This document shows, one piece after another, positions 149 through 2,832 of a stretch of 64,000 nt of DNA. Positions within the stretch are counted from its first letter, which is position 1. Each line of letters starts with the position of its first letter. The stretch is from contig JANXBZ010000010.1 of assembly GCA_025060475.1 (NCBI GenBank), positions 1-64,000 on the forward strand, in the 5' to 3' direction. The position numbers and the translations under genes were made by a program. Source of the DNA: Dictyoglomus sp. Lineage in GTDB: Bacteria; Dictyoglomota; Dictyoglomia; Dictyoglomales; Dictyoglomaceae. The notes beneath the pieces are model-generated. The model searched no databases. It had not been told where the DNA came from and saw only the letters and a list, made by a program, of their open reading frames with translations.

Positions 149-1891
149 TCACTTTTCTGAATTATCAGATATGCTCTCCCTTTTTTGTTGTTGAAACATT
201 TCAATAATTTCATCTACTGTTGTTGCTTGTTCAGGAGATTTATCTTCTCTTATAAATCCAATAACTCGAGGAAATCTTAATGCAAAACCTAACCTATCAT
301 CATCTTTGCCACAAGTATGAACAGGACTTTTTGTTATCTCATCCGCTTGAACTTCTATGACATATTTAGGATATACCCAAACGTCTGGAATTATTTGAGA
401 ATCCACATTAATAGGCTTATCATCTACTTTTATTTCATCTAATATTTCTCTAAATCTAAGCCACTCTTCTTCCGTAGGTCCAGTACCAATTTTTGCTATA
501 GTCTCATATTTATCTTTCTTAGGATTGTAAACGCCCACCAATAAAGCACCTATACCAAACCTAGCTCTCTGACCTCTTCCTTTAAAATAACCTAATATTA
601 TACAATCCACAGTATCAGTAAGCTGACTTTGATAAGATCTTTTAAGCTTTATCCAGTTAAAATTTCTTACTCCTGCTTGATAAGGAGCCTCTAATCTCTT
701 TGCTACAATACCTTCTAATCCTTCAGTTATAGATTCTTCAAAGAAAGCTTGAAGCTCCTTTGGAGAACTTGTAATAATATAATTTGTTACAACAATTGTT
801 TCCCCTGGAAGAATAATTTTTTCTAATCTTTCTCTTCTTCTAAGATAAGGAAGAGGAGTTAAATCCTCTCCATCAACATAAAGAAGATCAAAAACAAATA
901 ATTTTAAAGGAAAAAGATTCATCATTTTATCTATATCATACTTTCTTTTTCTTTGAACTGTAATTTGAAAAGGATAGAATTCATGAGTCTCAGGATTAAA
1001 AGAAATAGCTTCTCCCTCCAGTATTACATTTTCTCTAGAAACTTGATTAACTATTCCCTGAACTAGATCTGGAAACATATGGGTATTATCCTCAAGATTT
1101 CTCGAAAAAATTTTTACCTCTTTTCCTTTCTTATGAACTTGACATCTAAATCCATCAAATTTAGGTTCTACAATACATTTCCCTAATTTTTTAATTATCT
1201 CCTCTGGTGTAGACAATCTTTCAGCAAGAGCCATTCTAATAGGTCTTCCCACTTCTACTTTAATTCTTTTTAACGCCTCTATTCCCCCTTCCCAGAAAAT
1301 TTTAGCACAGTATCCTAAATCAGAAGTAATATTAAATGCTCTTTCTATATGTTCTCTTAAAGATTTATCTCCTTTTTTTACATATGATAAAGCATCCATT
1401 ATACTTGGCTCACCTATCCCAAGTCGTAATTTTCCAAGAACAATTCTAATTACATATTTTGCCCCTAAAGAGGTTAAGGAATTTATTAAATATGAAAGCC
1501 TATTAACTTTTGCCTCAATACTTCCTTCTCCACTTAGTAATGCTATGTCATATAAATTTTTAAAAACTTCTGAGACTTCCAAATCTTTTTCTCCTCTTGA
1601 AAGATGGAATACAACTTCTCCTAAATCTCCTATTTCCTTATATAATCTTTCAATTTCTATTAGATCTTTCATAAAAGCTAGAGAAATAGATCTTAGAGCC
1701 AATCTTTCAGAGATTCCAAATTCTAACTTTTCATAAGGAGGAGCAACTCTCCCATTAAGTAGATAAATAATCTTGTCAATCTCTTCAACTCGAGCTTTCT
1801 GGAAAAGTTCTGCTAGAATAATCATCATTTCATTTCTTTTAGTGGTGGTTTCTAATCTTTGAAAAAATATTGAAAGCTCATTGAAAAACAT
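149..1891 (-). CDS. lig: ATP-dependent DNA ligase (archaeal/eukaryal type)
   Basis: Seals nicks in duplex DNA through an enzyme-adenylate intermediate. The protein has the helical N-terminal DNA-binding domain (about residues 1-205), the nucleotidyltransferase core and a C-terminal OB-fold. Motif I is EPKFDG, with the adenylated lysine at about residue 244. Motif III-type FDLLYVDGE, motif IV EGIVAKR and motif V WIKLKRSY follow. The length (580 residues) fits the archaeal replicative ligase family rather than short bacterial LigD or LigB. A TTG three codons upstream overlaps the AGGAG ribosome site, so I choose the ATG at 1891, which lies 7 bases after that site. It stands alone, divergent from dapF. 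In bacteria such ligases usually accompany an NAD-dependent LigA; none lies in this window. Confidence 0.93.
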   Translation of the reverse strand: MFFNELSIFFQRLETTTKRNEMMIILAELFQKARVEEIDKIIYLLNGRVAPPYEKLEFGISERLALRSISLAFMKDLIEIERLYKEIGDLGEVVFHLSRGEKDLEVSEVFKNLYDIALLSGEGSIEAKVNRLSYLINSLTSLGAKYVIRIVLGKLRLGIGEPSIMDALSYVKKGDKSLREHIERAFNITSDLGYCAKIFWEGGIEALKRIKVEVGRPIRMALAERLSTPEEIIKKLGKCIVEPKFDGFRCQVHKKGKEVKIFSRNLEDNTHMFPDLVQGIVNQVSRENVILEGEAISFNPETHEFYPFQITVQRKRKYDIDKMMNLFPLKLFVFDLLYVDGEDLTPLPYLRRRERLEKIILPGETIVVTNYIITSSPKELQAFFEESITEGLEGIVAKRLEAPYQAGVRNFNWIKLKRSYQSQLTDTVDCIILGYFKGRGQRARFGIGALLVGVYNPKKDKYETIAKIGTGPTEEEWLRFREILDEIKVDDKPINVDSQIIPDVWVYPKYVIEVQADEITKSPVHTCGKDDDRLGFALRFPRVIGFIREDKSPEQATTVDEIIEMFQQQKRESISDNSEK

Positions 1892-2004
1892 GTTCAATCT
1901 CCTTTCTAAGGTTAAATCTCTAAACTTAATTTTAACATACTTTTTATATTCTAAGAATTTTAGTAAAATATGGATTTAAAAATCATATGTGAGGTGAAAA
2001 AATT

Positions 2005-2832
2005 ATGAGCAAATTTATTAAAAGCCATGGACTTGGAAACGATTATATAGTCTTTAATGAAGAGGACATTGATTTTCCTCTAAATACAAAAAATATCAAA
2101 AAAATCTGTGATAGGAATTATGGAATTGGCTCTGATGGAATTCTTATATTCAAAAAGATTTCTGATAATCAATTTAAAGTGAAAATATTTAATCCTGATG
2201 GTAGTGAGGCAGAAAAAAGTGGAAATGGTATAAGGATATTAGCAAAATTTTTATTTGAACATAAGTTTACATATCTTAAAGAATTTTTTATAGAAACTCT
2301 GGGAGGTCAAGTCAGAGTAAATTTAGAAACAGATAATAATAGAGTTAAAAATATAGAGGTAGAAATGGGTAAAGTAGAATTCTTTAATATAGATGAAGAA
2401 ATAGAAATATTAAACGATAAATTAAAGGTAGTCTCTCTAAGTATTGGTAACCCCCATTGTGTTTTTTTTGTAAAAGAAATAGATGAAGAATACATAAAAA
2501 AAGTAGGCCCTCTTATAGAAAATCATCCATCTTTTCCTCAAAGAACAAATGTTCAAATGGTCAAGATTATATCGCAAGACTCTATTGAGATTAGAATTTG
2601 GGAAAGAGGAGCAGGATATACACTAGCTTCTGGGAGTAGTTCCTGTGCTGCTGCATGTGCTTCATATAGAAAAGGATTTGTTGGTGAAAAAGTAAATGTA
2701 ATTATGCCAGGAGGTAAACTAGAAGTTATAATTAAACCTTCCTGGGAAGTTATCTTGAAAGGTCCTGCTCAAGAAATATTCATTGGAGAATTAAGCAAAG
2801 AATTTTTAGAAGATCTTAGATCTTTGAATTAA
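2005..2832 (+). CDS. dapF: Diaminopimelate epimerase homologue with Ser in place of both catalytic Cys
   Basis: Family role: interconverts LL- and meso-diaminopimelate for lysine and peptidoglycan synthesis in the cytosol, using two cysteines as acid and base. Fold signatures are clear: HGLGNDY at the start, NPDGSEAE, GNPHC and ERGAG. However, the first catalytic position reads EKSGNG (Ser72) where the family has QCGNG, and the second reads LASGSSS (Ser209) where the family has ACGTG. The glutamate of GAGE is also Tyr. Length (275) is normal and a GGTGA ribosome site precedes the ATG. The last 17 bases overlap the end of the convergent solute-binding protein gene. It could be a serine-using epimerase or racemase of another amino acid; family membership is sure, the reaction is not. 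Confidence 0.8.
   Translation: MSKFIKSHGLGNDYIVFNEEDIDFPLNTKNIKKICDRNYGIGSDGILIFKKISDNQFKVKIFNPDGSEAEKSGNGIRILAKFLFEHKFTYLKEFFIETLGGQVRVNLETDNNRVKNIEVEMGKVEFFNIDEEIEILNDKLKVVSLSIGNPHCVFFVKEIDEEYIKKVGPLIENHPSFPQRTNVQMVKIISQDSIEIRIWERGAGYTLASGSSSCAAACASYRKGFVGEKVNVIMPGGKLEVIIKPSWEVILKGPAQEIFIGELSKEFLEDLRSLN

Follow-up and report, generated by a model that had tools for sequence, protein, structure and literature searches.

A conserved DapF subfamily with serine at both catalytic-cysteine positions

The DapF protein encoded in the window, the whole 64,000-nucleotide stretch of Dictyoglomus sp. DNA that was analyzed, belongs to a genuine DapF subfamily that is conserved and probably functional and that lacks the thiol pair. 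We consider it likely that the protein is a working diaminopimelate (DAP) epimerase without that pair, with Ser72 and Ser209 as the best candidates for the two bases. Two-base racemization by a thiolate/thiol pair is modeled on DapF, both cysteines of which are treated as essential. In the open-licence literature, we found no described natural Ser/Ser DapF, no assayed Ser/Ser DapF, and no Ser/Ser two-base epimerase; the proteins of this class are named DapF in databases by homology.

Gene, motifs, and predicted fold

Alignment with 29 relatives confirmed the original prediction that serine occupies both catalytic-cysteine columns, within the motifs NPDGSEAEKSGNG (Ser72) and WERGAGYTLASGSSS (Ser209), and the protein thus stands outside the classical thiol DapF enzymes, which have cysteine at both positions (Table 1). 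A sequencing error was rejected as the source of the serines because five other Dictyoglomaceae genomes encode DapF proteins of 66 to 82% identity with the identical Ser/Ser/Tyr residues. All six family members found, Dictyoglomus turgidum and Dictyoglomus thermophilum included, are Ser/Ser. The tyrosine stands where a glutamate of the sequence GAGE had been expected; that residue change is real, but the weight given to it was mistaken. Glutamate is present there in 57 of 86 sampled Cys/Cys DapFs, the others having Ala, Arg, Ile, Pro, Leu, or further residues, and the change was rejected as a functional sign since Cys/Cys enzymes vary at this position. The GAGE glutamate is thus not a conserved catalytic residue. 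The glutamate that binds substrate lies in WERG (E200), and the window protein retains it.

The DapF fold is also predicted to be intact; the original prediction had noted intact fold motifs. The window protein matched PF01678 (3.2e-55; 185.8 bits, cut-off 34.7) and TIGR00652, the NCBIfam DapF equivalog (242.9 bits, cut-off 114.65), and its AlphaFold model (mean pLDDT 97.5) has the two-domain fold, with a predicted helix N terminus at each of the two catalytic residues. The best PDB match of the model was 9mro, the closed, aziDAP-bound Anabaena DapF (TM 0.89, 2.1 Å), with other DapFs next. The solved DapF-family structures that we saw included the engineered Cys-to-Ser mutants 2q9h, 2q9j, 9cr1, and 9cr6 and no natural Ser/Ser DapF. 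PF01678 was the sole Pfam match, with none to PhzF; the CntK model NF033599 did not match either, and the CntK cysteine pair is also absent. The protein is not a member of the proline racemase superfamily by sequence, the likeness being structural alone (TM about 0.8 at 12 to 15% identity).

The genes neighboring dapF encode an ATP-dependent DNA ligase, a family 5 solute-binding protein, a rubrerythrin-like protein, and CinA, and are uninformative on its function. The ligase (window positions 152 to 1897, minus strand) has a domain layout of the archaeal/eukaryotic type, here in a bacterium.

Table 1. Window coordinates of the Ser/Ser dapF gene and its features
Feature	Positions	Strand	Basis
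dapF-type gene, Ser/Ser diaminopimelate epimerase, 275 aa, ATG start	2005..2832	+	ORF, PF01678, TIGR00652
Probable ribosome-binding site GAGGTG, 8 bases 5' of the ATG	1991..1996	+	Sequence
Ser72 (AGT), first catalytic-cysteine position, directly N-terminal to helix 73-85	2218..2220	+	Alignment, model
Ser209 (TCT), second catalytic-cysteine position, directly N-terminal to helix 210-222	2629..2631	+	Alignment, model
Tyr205 (TAT), after GAG (GAGY); position varies in Cys/Cys enzymes too	2617..2619	+	Alignment
Lys71, class signature: Lys in 70/87 and Arg in 5/87 Ser/Ser; Met in 72/86 Cys/Cys	2215..2217	+	
Ile78, class signature: Ile/Val in 58/58 Ser/Ser clade rows; Cys in 71/73 Cys/Cys rows	2236..2238	+	
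Gln184, class signature: Gln in 82/87 Ser/Ser; Glu in 67/86 Cys/Cys	2554..2556	+	
Ser212, class signature: Ser in 77/87 Ser/Ser; Gly in 86/86 Cys/Cys; Anabaena Gly227	2638..2640	+	
Glu200-Arg201, distal DAP-binding pair (Anabaena Glu215-Arg216), invariant in Ser/Ser and Cys/Cys	2602..2607	+	
Asn63 (Anabaena Asn66), distal DAP contact, invariant	2191..2193	+	
Asn149 (Anabaena Asn164), distal carboxylate contact, invariant in Ser/Ser	2449..2451	+	
Asn182 (Anabaena Asn197), distal carboxylate contact, invariant in Ser/Ser	2548..2550	+	
Cys35, sole Cys column conserved through the Ser/Ser class (84/84 with a letter there); common in Cys/Cys too	2107..2109	+	

Distribution of the Ser/Ser class

The original prediction mentioned similar proteins with EKSGNG and LASGSSS motifs elsewhere, and such a subfamily indeed exists, as a deep clade larger than was guessed. 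Scanning with a DNA pattern of the second motif, its serine encoded by TCN, gave at least 116 stretches; among the matches listed, 112 were typed, 68 of them as Ser/Ser and 42 as Cys/Ser. The Ser/Ser rows among these listed matches come from about 20 phyla, including Verrucomicrobiota, Bacteroidota, Chloroflexota, Gemmatimonadota, Aquificota, Nitrospirota, Latescibacterota, and Actinomycetota. Many of the rows are metagenome bins, and single phylum placements from bins may be contaminants.

A tree of 154 rows was made with the catalytic columns removed, by a quick search with SH-aLRT support only; it is unrooted and does not give the direction of change. One deep clade of 59 rows (SH-aLRT 98) holds 58 Ser/Ser sequences and one long-branched Cys/Cys sequence, with the Dictyoglomaceae inside it. 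Two other Ser/Ser rows (L077 and L078) fall within the Cys/Cys side of the tree, which points to a probable second origin of the pair. The Cys/Ser combination has separate origins, in Rhodobacterales and in other groups. The Ser/Ser DapF is an old, widespread version of the protein, not a local oddity of one heat-loving bacterium, and adaptation to a thermophilic or anaerobic life is not supported as its cause, because many lineages of the clade, Opitutaceae and Bacteroidota among them, are mesophilic.

The Cys/Ser DapFs of Rhodobacterales (L054, L056, L057, L062, L065, L067 to L069, L087, and others) form a large class (CGNATR ... ASG) in which the second catalytic cysteine alone is lost, and the gene was single copy in all three Rhodobacterales genomes checked. 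The reverse single replacement, with the first cysteine lost and the second kept, occurs in two rare Ser/Cys DapFs (L028 and L278). Contamination or transfer is possible for the Ser/Ser DapF of Ewingella americana E4 (L157), which groups with Chloroflexi, and for that of Clostridium sp. LS (L149), which groups with Bacteroidota/Aquificota. Blautia and its relatives (L070, L079, L085, L130, and L164) have a Ser/Ser DapF with isoleucine at position 71, present as a second copy beside another DapF in both of the genomes checked; in L070, the gene lies near prfB and a homoserine dehydrogenase gene.

Pathway context and the Opitutaceae

DapL makes LL-DAP, while LysA and DNPR-type MurE consume meso-DAP. 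The window's genome has dapA and dapB, both DapL and LysA over their cut-offs, and a MurE with the DNPR motif; an epimerase is therefore needed, and the window DapF is the only candidate known. A search for a second, cysteine-bearing dapF, suggested along with the original prediction, found none in this 99.6%-complete genome, in which the window DapF is the only DAP epimerase. A bypass to meso-DAP through Ddh was rejected, the matches to that enzyme in the window's genome being weak, partial, and below the cut-off. With DapL, LysA, and a DAP-type MurE present and Ddh and a second DapF absent, the window protein has the profile of a sole supplier of meso-DAP. D. turgidum is apparently capable of making all 20 amino acids (PMC5167688).

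Named records led to 25 Ser/Ser genomes, of which 20 lack any other DapF; the remaining five encode another DapF as well, the Ser/Ser protein being a second copy. Gene order in some genomes also links the class to lysine synthesis: Tangfeifania has its Ser/Ser dapF between lysA and a divergent DapL gene (lysA-dapF-dapL), and one bacterial bin has it in a lysC-dapB-dapA-dapF run. A different setting is that of Pseudomonas sp. LP_7_YM (L095:227-3145), where a Ser/Ser DapF paralogue follows genes for a capreomycidine-synthase/GntC-like PLP enzyme and an argC-like protein. That genome has other DapFs, and the paralogue is probably a specialized-metabolite racemase.

A family sample was assembled around one Opitutaceae bin and its sequences were typed, one of them a fragment with the first motif only. 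By reciprocal searches, 47 of these genomes have a Ser/Ser DapF, 8 have a Cys/Cys DapF, 6 have neither, and none has both. The hypergeometric probability of zero overlap is about 1e-6 if the genomes are taken as independent, which relatives are not. The eight Cys/Cys genomes (L341 to L348) carry a distant DapF (YERGVEDETLACGT) in place of the Ser/Ser DapF of their relatives. The pattern looks like displacement of one DapF form by the other, and such displacement would imply equivalent function. Opitutus terrae PB90-1 has a Ser/Ser DapF only; DAP was detected in its whole-cell hydrolysates at a low level, together with ornithine, its stereochemistry not being determined (PMC5303756). From the pathway, copy number, displacement, and gene clusters, we strongly infer that the Ser/Ser class has DAP epimerase activity; the low DAP level of O. 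terrae and the five genomes with a second-copy Ser/Ser protein count against it.

Active site, mechanism, and alternatives

The Anabaena DapF study (PMC12039745) gives the contacts to DAP as Asn13, Asn66, Asn164, Asn197, Glu215, and Arg216. The corresponding N12, N63, N149, N182, E200, and R201 show little or no variation across 87 Ser/Ser rows, and all of the DAP-contacting residues checked are present in the window protein. Relative to Cys/Cys enzymes, the Ser/Ser clade has the coupled changes Met71Lys, Cys78Ile, Glu184Gln, and Gly212Ser. Position 78 is a third near-invariant cysteine in the Cys/Cys enzymes and isoleucine in the Ser/Ser clade. Gly212 is equivalent to Anabaena Gly227, the backbone NH of which contacts the catalytic sulfur (PMC12039745). 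With another catalytic atom, the support needed at this spot would differ, and Gly212Ser may be such an altered support.

In the mechanism that we propose, the Ser/Ser DapF would take LL-DAP from DapL and invert one α-carbon; the resulting meso-DAP would go into lysine through LysA and into peptidoglycan through MurE. Another acid/base pair, which the original prediction had put forward, is the likely consequence of the cysteine loss. Ser72 and Ser209, at helix N termini in the two-domain cleft, would replace the cysteines as the two-base pair, one serine abstracting the α-proton as an alkoxide or strongly hydrogen-bonded hydroxyl and the other donating a proton to the opposite face. Lys71 beside Ser72, the loss of Glu184, and Ser212 would make the active site more positive and richer in hydrogen bonds, which may help a serine to act as a base. 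Counting against this pair, the acidity of serine is far below that of cysteine, and the double-hydroxyl pair known in this fold (Ser/Thr) dehydrates rather than epimerizes, which by analogy would speak against epimerization by Ser/Ser. In a related Cys/Cys racemase, each Cys-to-Ser change left less than 0.1% activity (PMC8225329), and the same is reported there for M. tuberculosis DapF. Such engineered variants keep a thiol-built scaffold, whereas the natural class alters several positions together.

It is possible, though unlikely, that the protein is a DAP epimerase in which other residues (e.g., Lys71, Cys35, water, or His151) move the proton and the serines only position things. Lys71 adjoins Ser72 as a class signature, and Cys35 is the one cysteine kept in every Ser/Ser row with a letter there, no other cysteine column being fully conserved in the class. 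However, Lys71 is isoleucine in 7 of 87 Ser/Ser rows and is missing from the second Ser/Ser origin, so it is not strictly required, and His151 is conserved in Ser/Ser and Cys/Cys enzymes alike. Cys35 was considered unlikely as a replacement base, being common in Cys/Cys enzymes too; it is present in the well-studied Anabaena enzyme, where it is not known to have a catalytic role. The serines themselves stand at two helix N termini facing the α-carbon in the DapF fold.

Far less probable is a racemase or epimerase recruited for another substrate after the cysteine loss, an option that the original prediction had raised. The same fold hosts enzymes for histidine, hydroxyproline, and O-ureidoserine (PMC12039745), and the genes adjoining the Pseudomonas paralogue fit such a role. 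Yet the residues that recognize the amino and carboxylate groups at the distal end of DAP do not vary, the window protein has no CntK or PhzF family match, and where meso-DAP is required the Ser/Ser protein is usually the only DapF, with LysA and usually DapL and MurE present; the dap/lys clusters of some genomes and the swap with Cys/Cys DapF in Opitutaceae also argue against it. We give equally little credence to a catalytically dead or scaffold protein beside an unrecognized enzyme that makes meso-DAP. Engineered Cys-to-Ser replacement nearly abolishes activity in classical members (PMC8225329), but dead proteins would drift, and this diverse clade keeps both serines together with the ligand residues. 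Nor would it be sensible for a Cys/Cys DapF to take the place of a dead protein in Opitutaceae, and Ddh is absent from the window's genome.

The preferred reading, a serine-based DAP epimerase, can be set beside known enzymes. With the classical Cys/Cys DapFs (Anabaena 9mro, Haemophilus influenzae 1gqz, and Arabidopsis thaliana 3ejx), the window protein shares the fold, the DAP-binding residues, the genome role, and TIGR00652; it differs in having Ser/Ser for Cys/Cys and Lys71, Ile78, Gln184, and Ser212 for Met, Cys, Glu, and Gly. The 4-hydroxyproline 2-epimerase B9JQV3, a proline racemase superfamily member of like fold, has a natural serine for one cysteine and works (PMC4113996, eLife 03275), so one serine can serve in this fold. 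Unlike the window protein, B9JQV3 keeps one cysteine and acts on another substrate, and identity to its superfamily is low, as given above. The trans-3-hydroxyproline dehydratase B9K4G4 (Ser/Thr; eLife 03275) is, like the window protein, thiol free at both catalytic positions, but it carries out dehydration and not two-base inversion. The histidine racemases CntK and HisR have the same fold and are likewise cofactor independent, but use Cys/Cys.

The two-thiol textbook rule thus probably has a large exception, and natural Ser/Ser DapFs in genomes with no other DapF make the contribution of the thiol directly testable with wild-type enzymes. Annotation is affected, because the PROSITE signature, as quoted in PMC8225329, demands cysteine. 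The class also bears on inhibitor design, since aziridine-DAP alkylates cysteine (PMC12039745), and on redox regulation. The DapF of C. glutamicum is inactivated by a disulfide between its two cysteines (PMC5296763), and immunity to such a disulfide is, speculatively, a possible advantage of the serines. On balance, we lean toward the view that the class carries out the same essential reaction by a different chemistry, insensitive to disulfide inactivation and thiol-directed inhibitors, that arose at least twice.
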